The notes under the pieces are model-generated. The model saw only the letters and a list, made by a program, of their open reading frames with translations, searched no databases and had not been told where the DNA came from. A DNA stretch of 26,502 nucleotides from Saccoglossus kowalevskii (Eukaryota; Hemichordata; Enteropneusta; Harrimaniidae): the NCBI RefSeq assembly GCF_000003605.2, contig NW_003130854.1, forward strand, positions 2,673,138-2,699,639, given 5' to 3'. Made by a program: the position numbers and the translations under genes. Positions 1-25,402 of this stretch are shown here, one piece after another. Numbering within the stretch: the stretch's first letter is position 1; the number at the start of each line of letters is the position of its first letter.

Positions 1-437
1 TTCATTAAAAAGTTTAGGACTAAATTTTCAAAAGCACGGTCTTTGTATAACACTTGGACTTTTTACTACACACTGACGAGTTTTAATAAGAAACTTTGAT
101 TCAGATCTTAAACTACGACTAGGTACATAAAATTCGATTAATTCACATAGATAATTTGGGGCAAAACCATACAAAGATTTATACACTAGTAAAAGTAATT
201 TGAAATTGATTCTTTGTACAACTGGTAACCAATGAAGTTTAATAAAAATGTCTGTAATGTGGTCATATTTTCGAGCACGAGTGACAAGGCGGGCTGCTGC
301 ATTTTGTACACGAATAAGAGGTTTTATCTTAGTTACAGGGAGACCAGACAATAATGAATTACAGCTGTCTAAGCGAGAAGATATGAATGCATGTACCAAC
401 TTTTCAGTATCAGATGTGACATTGGATTTACCGTTTC
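1..437 (-). mobile_element. CR1/L2-like LINE, reverse transcriptase C-terminal remnant
   Basis: An open frame on the minus strand from about 435 down to 28 matches the region just after the catalytic RT core of CR1/L2/jockey-type non-LTR retrotransposons. Diagnostic pieces in order are SRLDSCNSLLSGLP, RVQNAAARLVTRARKYDHIT, LHWLPVVQRINFK and YVPSRSLRS. A TGA codon at 436-438 ends the frame on its upstream side, and the RT catalytic motif and endonuclease are absent from the window. This is the 5'-truncated tail typical of a dead LINE copy. The frame ends in a stop near position 28 and the element's 3' end probably lies off the left edge. It sits downstream, on the same strand, of the duplicated racemase exon 1, so it is likely an insertion in that paralog's first intron. 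The family assignment rests on remembered consensus wording. Confidence 0.8.
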
Positions 438-1659: not shown

Positions 1660-1836
1660 CTTGAATGCCCCAATCTTTTGGAACAGCTCACATTTGAAGT
1701 AAAGATGTCGTCCCCCGGAAAACCTATCCATGGTCCGACACGTCATTACAGGCGTTACATGGGCCGCTGGTTTTATTCGTTCGACAGCTTTTTGCACATC
1801 TTCGTAGCTAATGCAGTATTTATTTTCTTTGGACAT
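1660..1836 (-). CDS. Racemase paralog, first coding exon (partial gene)
   Basis: These 59 codons begin MSKENKYCISYEDVQK and end at GAFK, the same end point as exon 1 of the plus-strand racemase. They end in a perfect donor, AAG|GTACGT, in phase 0. Only four residues differ from the plus-strand copy (G3K, K5N, S33C, Q34R), and I count 13 nucleotide differences in 177. The last 73 bases are identical. The intron sequences diverge at once after the donor. The C-terminal lysine is the PLP Schiff-base lysine of the serine/aspartate racemase family. The orientation is opposite to gene 1, giving two exon 1 copies head to head about 7.3 kb apart. The rest of the paralog would lie left of position 1. 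It could be a live paralog or an isolated duplicated exon; the intact frame and donor favour a live gene. Serine versus aspartate specificity cannot be told because the loop exon is not present. Confidence 0.75.
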
Positions 1837-3876: not shown

Positions 3877-4239
3877 TTACAATTTAAAATTATTGTAGCT
3901 TGTTGGTCACATGTACTTTCAATGGCCTTCACCATCCCGTTCTGTTGTATCCATCTCTTTCTTGATAAAACATTCCAGTGTTGCCAATAACGACGATATT
4001 TGATATATTTATTGTATTTTTATTAGTGTAAATTCAATAGACGTGTGTAATCTGAGCCCGTTTATATATAGACTGTGACGTTCAAACTAGAATTTAAAAA
4101 TATCCATGTATGTGTGGTATTGTGTTTAAATAGTTACATTAGTTGGACAGCTGAATAGCAATAGTGAGATAATCAAAAGTTTTGAAATAAGTTGGTATCG
4201 TACATTTGCAGTTATTGTCCCGTTTGCTTGAGCGAGGTT

Positions 4240-5257
4240 GATCCTGAAATTGCTCAGTTTAGAAAAGTGAAGGGTGAACTGTCGATTGCAAAAGAAGTAA
4301 TACTGAGAGGGTAACGTCCCACACGCATTACAGCAACGTACAATCAAATTACCATATAGTGGACATCAAGGAGTAGTGAAGACAAAGAGATTACTTAGAA
4401 AACCATTATGGTTCCCTGTGATAGACCGTATGGTAGATGAACTGATAGCTAAACGTGTTCCATGTCAAGCAGCAAATCATATAATGAGCCGTTAAAAATA
4501 ACCACACTACCTAGTGGTCTGTGGAAGAATGTTTAAATGGATAAAAGTCCACCATTTAATGGACATGATTTCAGCAAGTTTGCTAATCACTTGAGACTTC
4601 ATCCCCAGAAAGTGACACCACTGTGCCCAAGAGCAAATGGTGAATCAGAGAGAGCAATGAGAACTGTTGAAAAGACAGTGCGTGCCTTACTTGAAGGCAA
4701 TAATTGGCATAAGGAAATATTCGATTTTTTACATCAATAACGTGCTACATCACACTCCATAACTGATAAATCTCCAGCAGACTAGCTGAATGAAAACTAA
4801 GAACCATAATTCCAGAAATACAACACCAGCAATACAAACCTACAATCCAAAGATGCAATAAAGAAACAGATTATGAAAGAGTACGCTGATCAAAGAAATC
4901 ATGCAAAATCGTCAGACATTCAAATAGGAGATCGTGTACTAATCAAACAAAGAAAACAAAATAAGAAGTCTGGACCATTTAAGCGAGAGCCATATTAAGT
5001 CGAGCAACAGAAGGGGACAATGATAACTGCTCGTCGAGGAAATCATAAAGTCACACGCAATAGCTCTTATTTCAGGAAACTGAAATTCAGCGAGGGAGTT
5101 ATTCCAGGTGAATAGGAATTAGAAGAGATGGAAGAAAAAGAATTTAATTCTTCAGATGTTGAAAATGTGCCATCACACCGGACATACAACCACAATCAAT
5201 ACGAAATCAACCAGATTAAGGCGTGAACCGGAATACCTCAAAGACTTCATAACATAA
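4240..5257 (+). mobile_element. Decayed Ty3/gypsy pol remnant (integrase)
   Basis: Conceptual reading with several stops gives the tail of a gypsy-type pol. First comes DPEIAQFRKVKGELSIAKEV-ILRG. The integrase zinc-binding region follows, with HQGVVKTKRLLRK, PLWFPVIDRMVDEL and PCQAA, then EPLKITTLPSGLWKNV. The frame then jumps straight to DKSPPFNGHDFSKFA and KVTPLCPRANGESERAMRT. Most of the DDE catalytic core, including the first two acidic residues, is therefore deleted between about 4530 and 4540. Downstream are IQIGDRVLIKQRKQNKKSGPF and a C-terminal STRLRREPEYLKDFI before a stop at 5257. Stops in 4310-4500, 4738 and 4784-4812 confirm it is dead. Gag, protease, RT and a 5' LTR are not visible. 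Stretches are described as seen; no repaired frame is proposed. Confidence 0.85.
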
Positions 5258-8731: not shown

Positions 8732-8995
8732 CGTCCATGCCAGGCACACGGTTATACTGCGTGGTATGTATAATTTATATTCTTTGTTGGCAAAGGTGGA
8801 ATCGTATCTGTCTGTGTTTTGGTGGTATTTATCACAAAATTTATTCATTTGTTATATATTTATTTGTTACATTTTTTGTTTCATTCACAATTAAATATAA
8901 ACGAATATGTGTAACACGGACGCGTCTCGTACTATCATAATGGTATATTATAGAAGCCATTTATTTTACGATTGGTAGGCGATCCTGAAGGTCAA

Positions 8996-9109: not shown

Positions 9110-9286
9110 ATGTCTGGGGAAAAGAAATACTGCATTAGCTACGAAGATGTGCAAAAAGCTGTCGAACGAATAAAGCCGGCGGCTCATGTAACGCCGGTAA
9201 TGACGAGCCAAACCATGGATAGGTTTTCCGGGGGACGACATCTTTACTTCAAATGTGAGCTGTTCCAAAAGATTGGGGCATTCAAG
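9110..9286 (+). CDS. Racemase exon 1 (residues 1-59)
   Basis: The exon runs from ATG to AAG|GTATGT. It carries the N-terminal helix and the strand ending in the PLP lysine K59, the last codon before the intron. This exon alone has a duplicate in the window (1660-1836, minus strand). Confidence 0.92.
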
Positions 9287-12200: not shown

Positions 12201-15200
12201 CTTGTAATACCATGGGCTGTTTTATCCTCTCACCTTTTGGTTTAGATAATACTAGCTCGTAACATGTATACGAACAAGTGATATTAGGAGATAATCTTGT
12301 ATTGAATATTCTGTAAGTCGAGTTTCTCCTTCAGAAACTGATGTAATAATACCAGTGCATTCACCTGTCACTGGTAGAATAGTGGTTGTAGTTATGGACT
12401 TATGATTTCATATCCTACCTTGGGTTAAATACTAAAAGAGGTCAACCACTACTTTAGGTTAGTGTGCCACAGACTCAGCGGTCGAAAGGCTAAATCCACT
12501 AACAAATGCAGATTTGGGGGAGCCTTGATGACAGTCTGCCGGCACAAAATGTGTTGTTGAAAAAAAATATAAACATTTAAATATAGTTTAATGAGTTATA
12601 TTTATGTTTTTTTTTTTTGTAGTTCCGTGGTGCTTACAATGCCATAAGCCACCTTATTGATGACTGTCCTGATAAGTCAAAAGTTAAAGTGGTGACACAC
12701 AGCAGTGGTAATCATGGACAGGCATTGGCACTTGCTGCTAAAATGGCTGGTGTACAAGCCTATATTGTGATGCAGAATATCTCTCCAGCTATTAAAGTCC
12801 GTGCAGTTAAAGAGTATGGTGCCACAGTTGTTGAATGTGAACCTGGTGAAAAGGTAAGTTTATTGTTTAGTAATCTAGGGTAGCATAATCTATGTTGCTC
12901 ATAGTACTAAATCAATGTATTAAATGTATACACATAAATTCTGAAAAAAAAAATCTGCAGGGTATTTACATTTATTGTATTGAGAATAATACAACTGTAT
13001 TTATACCTATACCCAATTTGCAGCAGCCTGGAATTGTTCTGTATATGCAATTATATAATGGTCTATAAATTGTCTTGCTTTACTGTAGGCAAGAGAAGAT
13101 GCAACAAATAAAGTGATGGCAGAAACTGGTGCTATATTCATTTCATCATCTCAACATCCAGATGTAATTGCTGGTCAAGGAACAATGGCAGTAGAGTTGT
13201 TGAATGAGGTAAGTAAAGAACTTAGTGAATGTGGTAAGCAACAATAAGAGGGAAGTCAGTGAATAAGGTAAAACAATTGAAAGGGGAGTAAGCGAATGAG
13301 GTAAGAAACTATATAAGGGAAGTCAGTGAATAAGGTTAAAACAATTGAAAGGTAGTAAGCGAATGAGGTAAGAAACTATATAAGGGAAGTCAGTGAATAA
13401 GGTTAAAACAATTGAAAGGTAGTAAGCGAATGAGGTAAGAAACTATATAAGGGAAGTCAGTGAATAAGGTTAAAACAATGGAAAGGTAGTAAGCGAATGA
13501 GGTAAGAAACTATATAAGGGAAGTCAGTGAATAAGGTTAAAACAATTGAAAAGGTAATGACTATAGAAGGAAAGTTAGTTTTTGAAATATTTAGTGACTT
13601 TTCCTTTTTGCAATAGTAAGACATAATGGTGACTGTAGCATGCTTGTCAGGTGTATACAGTAAAATCACACTGTCATCATTTCACTATATATGTAACAGT
13701 ATTATGATACCAAAAATTTATAAACACACTATAGACTATAGACAAGTGTCAATACATTTTTACAATATATCTTGAATTCTGTTTCAGGTACCTAATCTTG
13801 ATGCTATTGTAGCCCCTGTATCCGGTGGTGGTATGGTTGCTGGTATCTGCATTGCTGCCAAGGTAAATATTGGTTTCCTTAACCATTTATTTTGACAATT
13901 AATGCAGTCCTCAATAACTGTTCCGCATGTAGAGAATGTCCCCTTTTGTTAAAGTGAAATGAATTGATGGAGTAATCTTTATGCATGAAAAAAATGCTCA
14001 CAGAATTAATTACATTCAATTGGCTCTTCACACTGACTACATGTATAACATTCTGAGAAATAGATGTTAATCTATAACCCAATGTAGTATTATGTATTCA
14101 AATTTTGTATTATATCAGCACTTGCAAACTGCACATAAAACACATCAGGAGAGACAACAATTGTCGCCTGGCAAACAATTGTATTCAAATACAACTTAAT
14201 CAATGAGCCACATTTTTCTAGCTGTATTATTGAGCAATGTAATACCAAACAAAAGATGCTCCATAGCAGTTGACTTTGTGGTTGCAGCAATGTTTCTAAA
14301 CAATGGTGTCAGTTGATCTAAGACTATATTCGTTTAATTTCCTATTTTTTTTTACATCAGTATGTCATGCCTGGTGACTTGTAGTTATGTTGTTCAAACC
14401 ATACAACTTATGAAATGTATAAGTTGCTATTTTTTTGTTTAGACTATTCCTGCATGTTTTATATTTGGGGTGTGTAAACAGAAATCAAGTAACATGTTTT
14501 TTGGTGACTTAATTATATGTACAAAAGCATTTCTTTGTATTTATACTGTAGTTAATTTTATATGTAGTTGATTGGGAACTACATTAGAAAGACATGGTTA
14601 TTACCTACGTAGCACATATGATACAGATAAACCAACCAGAGAATACACAAACAGAATCCACACTTGCACAATTCAGATGACAGTATACCTCAAATCACTA
14701 TTAGATCTACTTAAAAATCATTATACTTGTCTTTACAGCACATCAAACCAGATATTAAAATCTATGCAGCTGAACCCATCAATGCTGATGACTGTGCCAA
14801 ATCGTTTGCTGCAGGTCACCGAATTCCGTTACCGGGACCACCGGACACAATTGCTGATGGATTGAAAACATCAGTAGGAGTTAATTCTTTTCCTATCATC
14901 AAAGATAATATTGAGGATGTAATCACTGTTACTGAAGAAGAAATCAAGGTATATGACTATTAGTATTTGTCCCTGTTCGGACGCAGTCCGATAACAGGGA
15001 CCTATGGATTGACCTTTGTGTGTGCGTCAGTGTGTGTGTCCGGTCCTGTATCTTAGACATGCCTGGATTGATTACATTCAAACTTCACACATACATCATA
15101 TTATACATAAGCACATCAATTTGTTTCACAATCTAATTCAAGATGGCCGAAAGGTGGCCATTTTTGTGCTGAAAAATCTAAATTGAGCATTTCTGGCATC

Positions 15201-16438
15201 TCAGAACCGGATCTTGGATGTTTACAGGTGGATTCTGTCAAAACTTGGTACATACATTTATGCACATCATTTTGTTTTTCAGATGGGATTCAAAATGACC
15301 AATATGAGACCATTTTGTTTTAATGAATGCAGTTCTAGTGNNNNNNNNNNNNNNNNNNNNNNNNNNNNNNNNNNNNNNNNNNNNNNNNNNNNNNNNNNNN
15401 NNNNNNNNNNNNNNNNNNNNNNNNNNNNNNNNNNNNNNNNNNNNNNNNNNNNNNNNNNNNNNNNNNNNNNNNNNNNNNNNNNNNNNNNNNNNNNNNNNNN
15501 NNNNNNNNNNNNNNNNNNNNNNNNNNNNNNNNNNNNNNNNNNNNNNNNNNNNNNNNNNNNNNNNNNNNNNNNNNNNNNNNNNNNNNNNNNNNNNNNNNNC
15601 AGATACATCAGTTTGACTATGAGATTGTGATGGCTGACCAGTGGCCATTTTGTTTTAATTAATGATATTATAGAGCAATATACATTGTATCTCTCAATAT
15701 GGACAAGTACTCTATTGACACTCAGATACAAGATGCCTGAATGTTAAAAAATCATAATCAAGCATCAGCTTCTGGATCCATATCTCTGACACTATATTAC
15801 TATAAACAAAACTGTATATTCTAAATTTGATAATTAATGTGGCTGTGCATGGCTTGTTACTTTAAAAAGGGGGTGTGTGTGGAAAAAGACTGGCAGGTCA
15901 ACACAAGTTGTTACCATCAAATAGTGAACAATAAACTGAATGCACATTTTAACTTAGATGCTCTGTGTTATTTATAAGAACTGAAAGGTAATCGTTTTGC
16001 GTCAGCGACAGCAATTTTCACCAAATGCGAGTACCGGTACCTCTGAATGTACACTCGAAATGCAGATATTAAAATGTTTACTCGTATCATTGTTTAGTTT
16101 AGCCAGTCAGCTGTTAACCCCTAATTCAGTTGAGCTAGCTCCAAACAAATGTTTTACAGTAATTATATATTAATCTGAAACGGAATCGTGTTCATAAAGA
16201 CTACTTTAGGGGGCCATCGATCAGCAGAATTTCTCATTTGCAATCGTAATTTCTTTTTCAGATTGCTACAAAGTTAATGTGGGAGAGAACCAAGCTATGC
16301 ATAGAGCCGTCATCTGGTACAGCTGTGGCTGCTGTACTCTCAGATAAATTCAAAGCACTTCCAGCAAGCATCAAGAATGTTGGTGTAATTCTATCTGGTG
16401 GAAATCTGGATCTCTCCAAATTGTCTGATTGGTTTTAA
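9110..16438 (+). CDS. Serine/aspartate racemase family enzyme, probable aspartate racemase (six exons)
   Basis: Joined exons are 9110-9286, 12623-12853, 13089-13208, 13788-13862, 14739-14948 and 16262-16438. They give 329 residues, close to the 340 of human serine racemase, and every junction is GT-AG and phase 0. Family members are cytosolic fold-type II PLP enzymes that interconvert L and D forms of serine or aspartate and eliminate water from serine. Visible landmarks are the PLP lysine K59 in FQKIGAFK-FRGA, HSSGNHGQ with catalytic S87, substrate arginine R138, the phosphate loop SGGG (188-191), a metal site E213/A217/D219, E286, and SGGN with S316 near the end. S155-S156-S157 replaces the His-Pro-Asn of vertebrate serine racemase. 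This triple-serine loop is the feature proposed to confer aspartate racemase activity in invertebrates. The C-terminal PDZ-binding tail of mammals is missing. The start at 9110 fits family length and has A at -3. Family is near certain; aspartate specificity is inference. Confidence 0.93.
9435..9510. repeat. Inverted repeat with perfect 14-bp arms
   Basis: TATTAGTGCTGTTG at 9435-9448 is the exact reverse complement of 9497-9510, with 48 bases between. Inner bases GTAG/CTAC extend the pairing across a small bulge. It lies 150 bp into intron 1. It could be a small MITE or a chance hairpin. Confidence 0.6.
10675..10713. repeat. Half copy of a fold-back repeat
   Basis: AAACCTGTGTGGACTGGATA with CTTTTGCAGCC matches one arm of the inverted repeat at 21380-21503. 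The partner arm is not seen nearby, so this is probably a truncated copy. Confidence 0.5.
11204..11416. mobile_element. MITE copy 1, about 210 bp
   Basis: Terminal inverted repeats of about 28 bp are read as CTGTAGAATACTTTATTTTC at the left. The reverse complement of CTAAAATAAAGTATTTCACAG stands at the right. TA flanks both ends (11204-11205 and 11415-11416) as a probable target duplication. The inside has more GCGAAAATAAATTCC palindromes. A second copy in inverse orientation stands at 22141-22352. It has no coding capacity. The TA duplication suggests a Tc1/mariner- or PIF-type source, which is inference. Confidence 0.7.
12623..12853 (+). CDS. Racemase exon 2 (residues 60-136)
   Basis: Acceptor TTTTTTTTTGTAG is followed by FRGAYNAISHL. 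The exon includes HSSGNHGQALALAAKMAGVQ with S87, the residue that removes the proton on the face opposite the PLP lysine. It ends EPGEK|GTAAGT. Confidence 0.93.
13089..13208 (+). CDS. Racemase exon 3 (residues 137-176), triple-serine loop
   Basis: AREDATNKV carries R138, equivalent to the substrate-carboxylate arginine R135 of human serine racemase. Codons at 13143-13151 (TCA TCA TCT) give S155-S156-S157, directly before QHPDVIAGQG. The exon ends AATGAG|GTAAGT, and that donor motif is multiplied in the adjoining minisatellite. Confidence 0.93.
13234..13556 (+). repeat. 67-bp minisatellite in racemase intron 3
   Basis: Unit starts lie at 13234, 13301, 13368, 13435 and 13502, each exactly 67 bases apart; the last copy is partial. 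Units 2 to 4 are almost identical and unit 1 is more diverged. Each unit begins GTAAG and ends AGCGAATGAG, so every unit boundary recreates GAATGAG|GTAAG, the exon 3 donor. The array begins 25 bases after the true donor. Confidence 0.95.
13788..13862 (+). CDS. Racemase exon 4 (residues 177-201)
   Basis: Twenty-five codons, VPNLDAIVAPVSGGGMVAG and onward, hold the PLP phosphate-binding loop. The loop reads S188-G-G-G where human serine racemase has four glycines. Acceptor TTTCAG and donor AAG|GTAAAT are both acceptable. Confidence 0.92.
13863..14738 (+). other. Racemase intron 4
   Basis: The intron is 876 bases of AT-rich sequence without a recognisable repeat or gene. It ends in a TTGTCTTTACAG acceptor. 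Confidence 0.8.
14739..14948 (+). CDS. Racemase exon 5 (residues 202-271)
   Basis: HIKPDIKIYAAEPINADDC gives the divalent-cation site E213, backbone A217 and D219, matching E210/A214/D216 of the human enzyme. IADGLKTSVG has T245 where human serine racemase has S242, a substrate-side position. The exon ends TEEEIK|GTATAT. Confidence 0.93.
14970..15000. repeat. Hairpin at the edge of a repeat block
   Basis: TCCCTGTTCGGAC faces GTCCGATAACAGGGA, giving a stem of about 13 bp with a two-base bulge and a short loop. It probably marks the end of the repeat element that fills intron 5. Confidence 0.6.
15066..15670. repeat. Degenerate tandem repeat flanking a gap
   Basis: GGATTGATTACATTCAAACTT...GCACATCAATTTGTTT near 15066 recurs with changes as GGATTCTGTCAAAACTT...GCACATCATTTTGTTT near 15231, a period near 165. 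CCATTTTGTTTTAAT-AATG occurs on both sides of the gap (about 15310 and 15644). The array probably caused the assembly gap. Confidence 0.5.
15341..15599. other. Assembly gap (259 N)
   Basis: The run of N is read directly. Nothing can be said about its content, and the number of N may be an estimate. Confidence 0.99.
16262..16438 (+). CDS. Racemase exon 6 (residues 272-329 and stop)
   Basis: The exon starts IATKLMWERTK, then EPSSGTAVAAVLS and VGVILSGGNLDLS with S316, the serine that contacts the PLP pyridine nitrogen in this family. It ends SDWF and TAA. The human protein continues for about a dozen more residues. Confidence 0.93.
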   Translation: MATKLMWERTKLCIEPSSGTAVAAVLSDKFKALPASIKNVGVILSGGNLDLSKLSDWF

Positions 16439-16598: not shown

Positions 16599-16604
16599 AA
16601 TAAA
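16599..16604 (+). terminator. Polyadenylation signal AATAAA, racemase gene
   Basis: This is the first AATAAA after the stop codon, 160 bases downstream. A second AATAAA at 17560-17565 could serve a longer 3' UTR. Transcript ends are not visible from sequence. Confidence 0.5.
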
Positions 16605-20227: not shown

Positions 20228-20778
20228 TTAAGTATTCTTATTATTTTCTTTACAATTCAAATATTGACGCTTTGCCTCAAAAGTGACAACACTCGTTGCC
20301 ATGGCAGCATTCAAGCTGTCCATTCCAAATGCCATTGGAATATGAACTTTGTATCCATAAGTTTCATCTGCCAAATCAACTGCTTGTTTACTCAATCCGT
20401 GCGTCTCGCCTCCAATGACAATAGCTGATTTCACAGTCCAGTCAATGTTATAAAAATCTTTAGTCGGTACACAGTTTAATTTCTTGTCTACGTCCATGTC
20501 ATTCATCAAATCCTCATTTGGTAACTTACTGAGCAAATTCATAGTCCTGACATCGTTTAAATCAAGAGTTCTGGGATCAACTACAGACTCAGTCTCACAA
20601 TCATCTTCTTCTACCCTTTCAAAGGCATCAGCGGTTCTACAATCAGCAACATGTACAACCACGTCATCATCTAGATAATTCTTGACACTGTCCCATGGAA
20701 GATTGTTGTGAATCTGTGTTCTGAAATGTGCGCCAGCTCCTGCACGTAGTACTTTGAGGTCCCATATATCCACACATC
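20228..20778 (-). CDS. MRM3: MRM3 last exon
   Basis: Acceptor TTTGTAG is followed by the completion of a glycine codon and CVDIWDLKVLRAGAGAHFR. The exon contains the acidic insertion and SpoU motifs 2 and 3, and ends KENNKNT-TAA. Its size (551 bases) is typical of a terminal exon. I find no clear polyadenylation signal just downstream. Confidence 0.92.
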
Positions 20779-23700
20779 CTACAAAGAGACATATGGTTTG
20801 TGTAAAGTAATAACGTCAGAATGTTTTAATATTTTGTATAAAAAAAAAATGTATTTAACATATATTGCATTCAACTTGTATTAAGGTATCTTAATGTTGT
20901 AACAGTGATGTGGATACACATGACATTATCAGAGGTCACATTCCAGGATATGTTTGGTAGTGTGAAATGCCATGTCTGTTGACATTATTATGTTAGTCAA
21001 ACCAGCTTCTAAAAGTTACATTTATTCCTTTAGTACAAGCATTTCCCACATGGAATATTTTTGCATGTAAAATAAATTTTTTAAAGACATGTAATTGTTT
21101 GAAAACTACATTATTGAGACATTAATTTCTTATACTTTGAATATTTTTACTTCACAGATTTCACACAAAAGGGGTGGTCATATGATAATCTTATCATACA
21201 CCTTGCATTGCCTGGCTTTGTAACACTATAGGAACTGCAGCCTCACATCAGAGCAATAAATTCCTGTATCACACCCCACCCAGCACGCCCGGTTTTCATC
21301 AATCAAAACAAACTAGTCATTCTAAATTACTTTGTGTGTTTAAGGTCATGCCGTGGTGAAATAGTAAGGCACATGATAAAACCTTTGTGGACTGGATATT
21401 GTTTTTGTGGCCCTCAGTTGTACGGCTAACACACCCTTACAAGCTTGGACGCTTCCGCCTCACAACCTCCGGCCGCAAAAGCTGTATCTAGTCCATAAAG
21501 GTTAATATCAACCAGCCATGGCAGAAGTCAAAGTGATCCAGTACTGCCTGAATATATATTTTGCGGCATTGCTCATGATAACCTTATTTTTATACATTTT
21601 CTTTTGAGTGATGATTTAATGAGAGCCAAAAAACAAACAAAAATGTATAGCACTGTGCAGATGTTTATGATCAGAATTCTATATCTATCAGATTTGTTCA
21701 TTTTGTGATGATATCTTCAATTCTCTAATTTTGATGATTATTTTTGTCTTTTTTAATAAAAAGTTATATGTTCGACTTCTTTTTGAAAACCGCAAGTCTG
21801 TTGCTTTGATAGTATACATGTAGGTAATACAGGTAGACCTCTCTCAGATTTGTTTATTTCATGATGATATCTAATTTTGATGATTATTTTTTGTCATTTT
21901 TGGTAAAAAGTGATATTTTCGATTTCTTGTTGAAAACCGCAAGTCCAATTGCCTAGATAATATACATATAGATACTACAGGTGGATCTCTCTCATATTTG
22001 TCCATTTTGTGATGATATCTTTATTTGAAATGTGCATTGCTAACAGCGAAGATGCGCTTGTAATAGAGCAAATACAGTATCACAGTAAGCATGGTTTGAA
22101 TGATAAAAATAAACTGTAGACGTACTGCAAATTCCTAGAATACTAAATAATACTTTATTTTAGCTGGAATTAATTTTTGCTGAAAAGACATTTTGGGTGT
22201 TTTGTATGGAATTTATTTTCACTGATTTTTGACAAGTTGAATGTAAAATATAGAAAAAAGGTATATTCGCTGGATATTATTTTCACTGAATCATTCCTTC
22301 AGCGAAAATAGCAAAAATAAATTCCAAGCGAAAATAAAGTATTTTACAGTATACTATACTACTGTATTACCCCGGGCACGCGCCCCTCCCTGGGCAAGCG
22401 CCCACCCCCCTGTTTTCACAAAAGTTACATGTTGGGGACATCCTCGGTTAAACGCCCAGGGTGATTTTTAGCCAAGAACGGGGTCAACAATAAAGTTTTA
22501 TTTGTCAAAAACGAACGCGTTTGATTTATTTAAATAGTGTGTTTGTTACGGTAGTTCTCTTTTTTGGAGTGTGTGGTGGCCCAGAAAAGGGCTGTTTTGT
22601 TTGTGTTTTTACATAAAAACTCATTGAAAATTAACGATGTAAGATGAACCACGCAGCATGTGGCGCACACGTTCTGCTTTCTCTTCATTCACAATGAATC
22701 CAATATTGCAATAATCCATACCTTGGTGAGTGGTTTGAAGCACATAGCTTTGGTTTCAAAACATAGCATTTCGCTGCCTGTGAATCCATAACAGGAGCTA
22801 GTACTTTTGAGACATCACGTCGTAAACTTTCTTTCCATCCTTCATCACAGCTATGGCATTACAGTCATGTGGATTATTTTTCTGTCGTTGAAGAAAAAAC
22901 ATTTTGCCGACCTCAAGTCCATTACGATAACCACAATGAGGCATGCCGACGATAGATCATCGTTATTTTTGTAATTTTGTCATGTGTGTGAGTGCGTGAA
23001 TAAATCATGTTAATGAGGTCGACCCGAGTTCATTTTCAGTCTGTTTTTTATGTATCGCCATTTGGATATGTTTATGTATTCACAATAGTTTGTAATCATT
23101 TCACATCAGTAATAAAAGGTTTATTTGTTTCATAAACCTGTCTGCTATTCTTCAGTAATTACGATGCGATGTATCAATACGTGCGTGAACAAAATTATGC
23201 TAATGAGGTCATCGCCATCTTGGATTACAAGCGGTAGTTTTTCCTGGCCGTTTCGACTTGCACTGATCACGGTTACTAAATTTACTGACATAAAACAAGT
23301 TTTATTCTTGAAATTATACCCCGTGTCTTAGTGTTCCTACAGTTCTTGACCGAGTGCTCACGTTTATTGAAACCTCGCATAAATCAAGAAATCAATACGT
23401 GTACAAAGTGTACGAAAGCATTCCTTTATTTGACCTTATACGATTCTTATTTGGGGTGGTCCTCGGGTAAGCGCCCACCCCCAATTTTTTTCGATTTTGT
23501 ATGTTCAGGCCCCTGGGCGCGTGACCGGGGTAATACGGTAATGACTAGTGTATTACATGTACCACAGCTAACTATGCATACTATATGTGTATCCATACCT
23601 TTTGTAACAAGTATTTGTTGAGAACCGGCTGCCACGGCAGAGCGTAGCAATGCACCCAAATTACCAGGCTCTCTTATATTATCACAGATGACAGTTAGCG

Positions 23701-25402
23701 GTATACTCTGCTCTTCAGACATCATTGGTAGATCTTCAAATCTTGGCTGGGAAAACACAGCTGTTGAATAAATCACAATGCCTCATTATATGTCATATTG
23801 TAAACAAATGTACATTTGTTTCACATCCATGTAGCGTCTGCATAAAGTGATATGCACATGCGTATTCCAGGTACAAATGTATATGGTGTTTGTGTTATGC
23901 TCTATTGGGAGTTTGAACATTATAACAAATGCAATGAAAAAAGACCATATCACCCTGGATTAAACATCTAACATATATTTACATTATATTATGACAATAA
24001 CAATCTCCTCACAGTTCCATATTTAATTCATAATTAATGGTACAAATAGTCACTATATGTGTGCTGAAATTCATTTTGTTCACAAAAACATTGTTTATTT
24101 ACTCATTTTCCACAAATTCATTCTAATATCAGAAATATTGTAATTTTGTTTGACACTCAAGATAAGTATTGGGTTTGTATAGAACAAAATTGAAGAAGCT
24201 TTTTGAAAAAAAAAATGTTTTCAATCAACTCACCAACAGAGGGTGCCATGCAGTGGCTAAATGAGTGGAAAAAAATTGGCTAGCAATTTTTGAGGTTTTT
24301 TAGGCCTAAACTGTTCTTTGAGCTTGTGTGCAAAATTCATTGCTGACATAGCCCAGAGTCTGGCCGTTGGTTTATATTCTAACTAACGCCCAATGAAACG
24401 CGCCTGAAAATTCAAATTGGATTATTCAAATCAGCAGAATGTGGTCGTGGCAGCAGCCGCCGTCGCTCAGTAACGAGATAAGACAGGGCGATCTATCAAA
24501 TTTTGACAGGGGCCTGTGGTTGGCTATTATTTTTAACCACACTCACTCATTATTATTCATAAGTCTGATTAGTGTAACAACTAGGGGAAAGCGTGAATTT
24601 CACGCATGATAACGTGAGAGACATCAACATTACACAGGGAAAATCATGATCGCTGCTATGCAAGTTTTTCAAGCTGTACATACAAGACGATTACCTTACG
24701 ATACCTGCCATTTTGTTTGACCTGGCAGTGTGTGATAATTCCTGGATTTGACCTTGTACCTATGCGATTATGTAAATTATATTTACGTTCAGACTCCTCC
24801 CTCCCTTTTCTGTCTCTTATCGAAATTGAAACCAGGATCACGTGGGGATGCTTTGACGTAATGTTGTTTGTATCAGTTGTTCAATTAGCTTCATGCCACC
24901 CGTATTCACCATTTGCATATTCGGACCAATTTCTGTGCTAGATCCAGCTCGTTTCACTGGGTGATGATTACGGGCAGCTATGCAAATTATCACAGCAGAG
25001 TCTCTGGGCTACTGCTGACAGTGCTGACTGACATCATGCTAATGTTGTAACTGACAGTTATTTGGCTGAATAAATTTGGAATTAGTGATACCAGTCACAA
25101 AATTAACACTGTTATCCACAATAATTTTAATAGTGGTCTTGTGCCAGATAAGATACATACCCATAATCCCCTGCGGTGTTACTACATCTGACCATAGTTT
25201 GACCTCCTTGTATGGAATCCTAAGAAGCTCAGCATCTGTTTCGTACCAAGGTATTCCTTCCAGACTTTCAACTCGGCTGAAGTATATGGTATGGCATTCA
25301 GCACCAGCCAGAATGGCATCGATTATAAGTCTTCTGCCTTCTAGCAGGACTTTTTTGGTTTGTTCTCTGTATTTCCGGGATCTCATCAGTGTCAGGATTC
25401 TC
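20228..25402 (-). CDS. MRM3: Mitochondrial rRNA 2'-O-methyltransferase MRM3 (RNMTL1), C-terminal three exons
   Basis: Exons in transcript order are 25402-25161, 23760-23599 and 20778-20228, joining in frame to 317 codons; the 5' exons lie off the right edge. MRM3 is a TrmH/SpoU-family enzyme that uses AdoMet to methylate a ribose in mitochondrial large-subunit rRNA (Gm1370 of human 16S). Residue 1 is the first full codon seen. The substrate-binding N-domain holds VLLEGRRLIIDA (18-29) and VTPQGIM (74-80). SpoU motif 1 is DNIREPGNLGALLRSA (107-122). Motif 2 is IGGETHGLS (256-264). Motif 3 is IPMAFGMDSLNAAMATS (281-297). These form the knotted AdoMet site and all key residues are present. An acidic insertion at about 185-240 sits between motifs 1 and 2, as in vertebrate MRM3. 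The missing part should hold the mitochondrial presequence. The gene converges on the racemase gene. Confidence 0.92.
21380..21503. mobile_element. Fold-back MITE-like element, 124 bp
   Basis: Arms of 33 bp at 21380-21412 and 21471-21503 pair at 27 of 33 positions, beginning AACCTTTGTGGACT and ending AGTCCATAAAGGTT. Five of the six mismatches are transitions. A related half copy lies at about 10675-10713. Confidence 0.7.
21689..22020 (+). repeat. About 150-bp tandem repeat, 2.2 copies
   Basis: Starts at 21689, 21845 and 21993 share AGATTTGTTCATTTTGTGATG and variants. Within units, TTTTGATGATTATTTTTTGTC, TTGAAAACCGCAAGTC and ATACTACAGGT recur in order. The spacings are 156 and 148 bases. Confidence 0.85.
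22141..22352. mobile_element. MITE copy 2 (inverse orientation)
   Basis: The reverse complement of 11204-11416 is read along its full length, with TTTATTTTAGCTGGAAT at the left and AAATAAAGTATTTTACAGTA at the right. The left terminus is slightly altered. It abuts the TIR transposon starting at 22360. Confidence 0.75.
22360..23540. mobile_element. 1.18-kb DNA transposon with terminal inverted repeats
   Basis: The left end TACTGTATTACCCCGG (22360 onward) and the reverse complement of the right end, TACCGTATTACCCCGG (from 23540), match at 24 of 26 positions through GCGCCC. Subterminal GGGCGCTTACCCGAGGA-like words recur inside both ends. The middle holds a decayed coding fragment on the minus strand (22750-22944) and a pair of similar phrases ending TTAATGAGGTC / CTAATGAGGTC. 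No transposase is visible, so it looks non-autonomous. Its right end lies 58 bases from the MRM3 exon. Confidence 0.75.
22750..22944 (-). pseudogene. HIRAN-domain-like coding remnant inside the transposon
   Basis: On the minus strand from 22944 one reads MPHCGYRNGLEVGKMFFLQR, then KNNPHDCNAIAVMKDGKKV. After a frame change near 22822-22835 it continues RRDVSKVLAPVMDSQAAKC. The pattern of a hydrophobic-R/Q stretch, N-P-x-D-x-N-A-I-x-V, then x-R-x-[DE] and L-A-x-x-M, matches the HIRAN DNA-end-binding domain as in HLTF. The frame break and stops outside it make it a pseudogene fragment. The HIRAN call is from pattern memory and needs a profile search. Confidence 0.45.
23599..23760 (-). CDS. MRM3: MRM3 internal exon with SpoU motif 1
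   Basis: Acceptor TTCAACAG and donor AAAAG|GTATGG bound 162 bases. The exon encodes VFSQPRFEDL, then LTVICDNIREPGNLGALLRS, ending ILVTKG with the last glycine codon split. Phases at both ends match the neighbouring exons. Confidence 0.92.
23761..25160 (-). other. MRM3 internal intron
   Basis: The intron is 1400 bases, beginning GTATGT and ending CAACAG. I see no gene or clear repeat inside. Confidence 0.8.
25161..25402 (-). CDS. MRM3: MRM3 internal exon, N-terminal substrate-binding region
   Basis: Acceptor TTTTACATTGCAG is followed by RILTLMRSRKYREQTKKVLL, and the exon ends VVTPQGIM before donor GTATGT. EGRRLI and TPQGIMG are family signatures of the SpoU substrate-binding domain. Exons upstream of this one lie beyond 25403 and were not found in the window. 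Confidence 0.92.

Follow-up and report, generated by a model that had tools for sequence, protein, structure and literature searches.

Serine racemases (SR) and aspartate racemases (AspR) can be compared at a short loop, which consists of His152-Pro153-Asn154 in human SR and of Ser157-Ser158-Ser159 in the AspR of Anadara (PMC6424897). Together with the following residue, the loop reads SSSD in the AspRs of Anadara and Crassostrea and HSSD in that of Acropora, and in the Crassostrea enzyme it apparently determines that L-Asp is preferred (PMC6424897). The Acropora sequence implies that an AspR does not strictly depend on all three serines. A PPY loop is present in the SR of S. pombe, in which AspR activity is absent, and in the L-THA dehydratases (PMC6424897). 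Human SR is a bifunctional enzyme which prefers negatively charged substrates for elimination and positions negatively charged substrates by Arg135 (PMC6424897). Within the family, activity changes when the loop is modified by site-directed mutation (PMC6424897), and AspR activity is described as having arisen from SR through the triple-serine loop (PMC6333871); the excerpts of the review PMC12414876 do not contain the word "triple". In the tabulated comparison of L-serine racemisation with elimination, the SSSQ mutant of mouse SR acts on serine as a racemase only, beta-elimination being absent, and reaches a relative racemisation value of 55, on a scale where human SR is at 100 and wild-type mouse SR at 133 (PMC6424897). 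All mouse SR mutants of Uda et al. 2017 listed there with serine at the first loop position are devoid of elimination activity, and for the single mutant SPNQ the racemisation only reported by Uda et al. 2017 conflicts with the ratio of 1:1.4 reported by Foltyn et al. 2005 (PMC6424897).

For a gene of the acorn worm Saccoglossus kowalevskii, the function of a probable aspartate racemase had been predicted from such a loop. Loop exchange in either direction is said to result in gain or loss of AspR activity, and serines introduced into the loop of mouse SR reportedly shift its specificity to aspartate, both according to work of Uda et al. dated 2017. On account of these loop swaps and of the mutants listed above, the role of the loop as a determinant has been put to experimental test and goes beyond a correlation. 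The original prediction had referred to a proposed rule; the published case, in which the loop was altered by site-directed mutation (PMC6424897), is stronger.

Gene structure and catalytic residues

The window, i.e. the whole analysed stretch of 26,502 nucleotides, contains on its plus strand a racemase gene composed of six exons with predicted borders, which are separated by five GT-AG introns, all of phase 0. Exon 1 (9110..9286; start context GTTGCCACTATGT) encodes residues 1-59 including Lys59, exon 2 (12623..12853) residues 60-136 including Ser87 as equivalent of the re-face base, and exon 3 (13089..13208) residues 137-176 including Arg138 and the triple-serine loop. Exon 4 (13788..13862) follows with residues 177-201 and the PLP phosphate loop, exon 5 (14739..14948) with residues 202-271 and the metal-ligand equivalents Glu213 and Asp219, and exon 6 (16262..16438) with residues 272-329, among them Ser316 as equivalent of the pyridine-N ligand, and the stop codon TAA. 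The spliced product comprises 329 codons plus stop and is free of internal stops and frameshifts. An in-frame stop is located upstream of the ATG (9110) at 8951, an AATAAA signal is found 3' of exon 6 at 16599, and intron 5 includes a gap of 259 bases.

Intron 3 harbours a 67-base tandem array of 4.9 copies (13227-13556, in the region 13202-13556). It carries four exact repeats (13294, 13361, 13428 and 13495) of the context of the true exon-3 donor, GAATGAG/GTAAG, of which 0.01 occurrences are expected in the window. The array looks like a splice-site segment amplified into decoy donors just 3' of the triple-serine exon.

The active-site set Lys59, Ser87, Arg138, Glu213, Asp219 and Ser316, described as intact in the original prediction, is completely present in the translation and aligns with Lys56, Ser84, Arg135, Glu210, Asp216 and Ser313 of human SR at a constant offset of 3 (human numbering and residue roles from PMC6424897). 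The Schiff-base lysine is preceded by phenylalanine (Phe58-Lys59). Membership in the fold family is documented by matches to Pfam PALP (PF00291; 1.3e-76) and to human SR (3.3e-112 over residues 5-328), and among proteins of solved structure the best scores are those of serine racemases. The PLP phosphate loop, on which the original prediction is silent, reads SGGG at residues 188-191, compared to GGGG in human SR. Since SGGG is also found in the solved serine racemase 5CVC, presumably from maize, and recurs in no fewer than 5 of the 40 prokaryotic sequences compared, the exchange is probably tolerated and would not indicate damage.

A protein search of the genome listed 9 matches, 7 of them in the window, and all 11 of 11 candidates were scored. 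The two matches outside the window, on C2561 and C1856, are 35 and 38% identical, respectively, and do not resemble the animal SR exons; the one on C2561 is an open frame of 181 residues. Two PALP-like pieces elsewhere in the genome (L021, 1132-1677, and L020, 1468-1695), 32-37% identical to the query, possibly represent other PLP lyase genes or contamination. Downstream in the window, the minus strand carries exons of an MRM3-like rRNA methyltransferase (20231-25386), recognized by the Pfam families MRM3-like substrate binding (1.4e-10) and SpoU methylase (2.2e-12). As human SRR and MRM3 are presumably both located at 17p13.3, the linkage between racemase and MRM3 may be ancient.

The mitochondrial genes of the 572-Mb assembly bear on the identity of the animal. 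On the mitochondrial contig C4830 (17,037 bases), COX1 carries ATA at positions typical of Ile, a single AAA at a position typical of Lys and TGA at Trp positions, and contains neither AGA nor AGG. ND1 has one AGA, at a position typical of Ser, eight AAA and no AGG; the codon counts cover these two genes, with typical residues assigned by our own judgement. The tRNA-Lys has the anticodon UUU. In Table 3 of PMC3121625, the combination of AUA for Ile, AAA for Lys, AGA for Ser, a missing AGG and tRNA-Lys with UUU is given for Saccoglossus kowalevskii and, among the rows shown, for this species alone. ND5 and cytochrome b, both named by eye, are neighbours, an arrangement also described for hemichordates (PMC2697986). 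The animal is accordingly almost certainly a Saccoglossus and most likely S. kowalevskii.

The triple-serine loop

Positions 13143..13151 of the plus strand read TCATCATCT, and splicing and translation of the six exons confirmed that the codons TCA TCA TCT encode Ser155-Ser156-Ser157. They form the sole SSS of the 329-residue protein; when the protein was shuffled at constant composition, SSS appeared at 155-157 in 9 out of 20000 cases. The claimed register also holds: in HMMER alignments with chains of the Protein Data Bank, the triplet coincides, with no gap, with HPN of human SR (3L6B; His152-Pro153-Asn154) and, in the stretch "yISSSddyDVIAGQGT", with the corresponding serines in the AspR of Anadara (5YBW). 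The fourth loop residue, which is absent from the original prediction, is Gln158 (CAA, 13152..13154) as in mouse and human SR. The acorn worm protein therefore lacks the aspartate which the AspRs of Crassostrea, Anadara and Acropora carry at human position 155; a requirement of this aspartate for aspartate activity is not stated in the reviewed literature.

For a comparison with prokaryotic relatives, which is more informative than the shuffling, 46 loci with DNA (7 + 39) were drawn from a longer match list, from which 40 distinct aligned sequences remained after dropping 6 duplicates; the sample stems mostly from one phylum and gives no frequency of SSS among animals. SSS is found at the loop position in none of these 40 sequences. 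The middle position is occupied by proline in 37 of them and the third by tyrosine (26), phenylalanine (13) or cysteine (1) but never by serine, which occurs once at the first and once at the second position.

A second exon 1

A second copy of exon 1, likewise absent from the original prediction, is located on the minus strand (1660..1836) at a distance of 7.3 kb from the plus-strand copy (9110-9286). It is divergently oriented, pointing away from the studied gene, and is followed by a donor GTACGT. Of the 177 bases, 13 are not shared by the two copies, which corresponds to 4 amino-acid changes, and the differences are distributed over the codon positions as 2/2/9, i.e. 9 of 13 fall on third positions (binomial p 0.009; NG86 dN 0.036, dS 0.26). 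The dN/dS ratio amounts to 0.14 by NG86 and LWL85 and to 0.38 by YN00, a rough estimate based on 13 differences which does not distinguish the constrained copy. The 39 in-frame codons 5' of the ATG (117 bases) differ between the copies at 31 bases spread evenly over the codon positions (11/11/9; NG86 dN 0.33, dS 0.31); third versus other codon positions differ between these upstream codons and exon 1 with a p of 0.02 in a Fisher test. The upstream codons behave as an untranslated leader, unlike exon 1. A longer N terminus of the racemase had been considered, as no stop interrupts the frame between position 8951 and the ATG at 9110, nor in the copy on the minus strand; it was rejected on the basis of the substitution pattern.

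Two coding exons apparently under constraint with diverging leaders look like a head-to-head gene pair, and the minus-strand exon suggests the start of a paralogue whose remaining exons would lie beyond the left end of the window. Within the window, further exons of the minus-strand copy were not found. Outside stretches reading N, a whole-genome DNA search with exon 1 returned the two window copies only, and the protein search of the genome returned no second set of exons 2-6. The differences between the two first exons are clustered, with long identical runs in between, possibly as a result of gene conversion. Decayed pieces, one located between these exons at about 4200-5200 (+) and the other beside them at 31-399 (-), look on visual inspection like integrase and reverse transcriptase of retroelements; Pfam searches of 4555-4737 (+) and 31-399 (-) yielded no family.

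Paralogous pairs of recent origin are reported to occur in several invertebrates (Uda et al., in a work of 2016). As a tentative scenario, to which we give rather less than even chances, the acorn worm genes might constitute a young head-to-head pair, in which one copy gained the triple-serine loop and the other, seen as exon 1 only, keeps the SR loop, the AspR state being reached via SSSQ and not via SSSD. If true, the substrate change would become datable and could be compared between two close hemichordate neighbours.

Discussion

With loop, register and catalytic set as claimed, the assignment as a probable aspartate racemase is supported, and we consider aspartate racemisation to be quite probably the main activity of the encoded enzyme. 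The integrity of the gene, the residues and their register can be read from the translated exons and alignments, and the residue roles and the substrate preference are transferred from mutants and structures of relatives. In analogy to human SR, Lys59, as the residue of the internal aldimine, would abstract the alpha proton at one face, with Ser87 returning it at the other, and Glu213 and Asp219 would hold the activating divalent metal. The side-chain carboxylate of an aspartate substrate could be paired by Arg138, again on the model of human SR. The loop formed by Ser155-157 is expected to lie over the substrate imine in place of His-Pro-Asn, where it would favour an acidic substrate and suppress the beta-elimination of serine.

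Several features appear to point away from AspR. Gln158 and Ser316 correspond to the states of mammalian SR, and the protein as a whole scores better with human SR than with Anadara AspR. As the aspartate at the fourth loop position and the cysteine at the PLP nitrogen, which are seen in some AspRs, are both missing, the gene might instead encode a clean L-Ser/D-Ser racemase, in which the SSSQ loop abolishes beta-elimination and aspartate is a secondary substrate. The cysteine, replaced here by Ser316, is stated for Anadara alone and is consequently not clearly a defining feature of AspRs. The highest overall scores of the protein, which are those against SR, would agree with a serine racemase, and the same loop, when introduced into mouse SR, yields an enzyme that keeps serine racemisation as its only activity on serine, with the relative value of 55 (PMC6424897). 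However, the native SSS enzymes named in the reviewed literature, those of Crassostrea and Anadara, are AspRs (PMC6424897). The loop serines are also reported, in the 2017 study by Uda et al., to direct mouse SR towards aspartate. Altogether, we regard a serine racemase devoid of elimination as unlikely.

An L-threo-3-hydroxyaspartate or L-serine ammonia-lyase in place of a racemase would be in line with the best NCBIfam matches, beta-hydroxyaspartate dehydratase BhcB (349.8 bits) and threo-3-hydroxy-L-aspartate ammonia-lyase (337.4 bits), and with the bifunctionality of human SR and its preference for negatively charged elimination substrates (PMC6424897). Both scores are, however, far below the curated cut-offs of 550 and 452 bits, respectively, and the L-THA dehydratases carry a PPY loop (PMC6424897). 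Moreover, the tabulated mutants of Uda et al. 2017 with serine at the first position are free of elimination, even if the SPNQ mutant of Foltyn et al. 2005 kept it (1:1.4; PMC6424897), and an eliminase thus appears very improbable. Least credible of all is a non-functional or mis-assembled copy with the divergent neighbour as the real enzyme, for which the constrained-looking second exon 1 at 7.3 kb, the four exact donor contexts in intron 3 that could disturb splicing and the 259-base gap in intron 5 might be quoted, but which is opposed by six exons with intact splice sites and checked active-site residues and by the absence of stops and frameshifts.

Returning to the aspartate racemase as the preferred assignment, previous publications have covered the enzyme family as well as the loop rule and how AspR evolved from SR (PMC6424897, PMC6333871), and the acorn worm gene adds a further case to the known family, with an activity predicted from its residues. 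In the open-access literature, to which the search extended, no report of a hemichordate aspartate racemase was found, and the titles retrieved for racemase together with Saccoglossus deal with other subjects. An aspartate racemase at this locus would provide a defined route to D-aspartate for hemichordates and would place the triple-serine solution in a phylum without a report found in that literature. Because the body of the protein scores highest against SRs and the glutamine and serine of mammalian SR are kept at two positions, the acorn worm protein also represents a natural test of whether three serines suffice.

The comparison with known enzymes illustrates this combination. Human SR (3L6B) is identical to the acorn worm protein in 169 of 324 aligned residues (52%), and the whole-protein score is 378 bits against human SR versus 248 bits against Anadara AspR (5YBW). 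This difference is also visible for exon 6 alone, with 55.5 bits against human SR and 35 bits against Anadara AspR. The residue-by-residue alignment with Anadara AspR covers exons 2 and 3 only; there, exon 2 is about equally related to both (38/75 identical residues for human SR, 39/74 for Anadara AspR), and in exon 3 Anadara AspR is, if anything, closer (17/30 aligned residues, versus 19/39 for human SR). Human SR and 3HMK, a further mammalian serine racemase, presumably from rat, share with the acorn worm protein the checked catalytic residues, the glutamine at the fourth loop position and the serine at the PLP nitrogen, whereas human SR deviates by HPN in place of SSS and by GGGG in place of SGGG.

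The AspR of Anadara (Scapharca) broughtonii, in turn, has in common the fold family and the SSS in register, followed by DVIAGQGT, but differs by Asp160 instead of Gln158 and by Cys321 instead of Ser316 at the PLP nitrogen. The AspR of Crassostrea gigas, compared by its loop only, shares SSS at human positions 152-154 and likewise differs by aspartate as fourth residue (SSSD). All four loop residues are identical to those of the acorn worm protein in the SSSQ mutant of mouse SR. By phylum, the nearest characterised relative would be the AspR of the sea urchin Strongylocentrotus purpuratus, both animals being ambulacrarians; its description is reportedly due to Uda et al. in 2016. Compared to these systems, the acorn worm protein appears to carry an AspR loop in a body which as a whole is SR-like, an arrangement that fits a repeated origin of AspR from SR.
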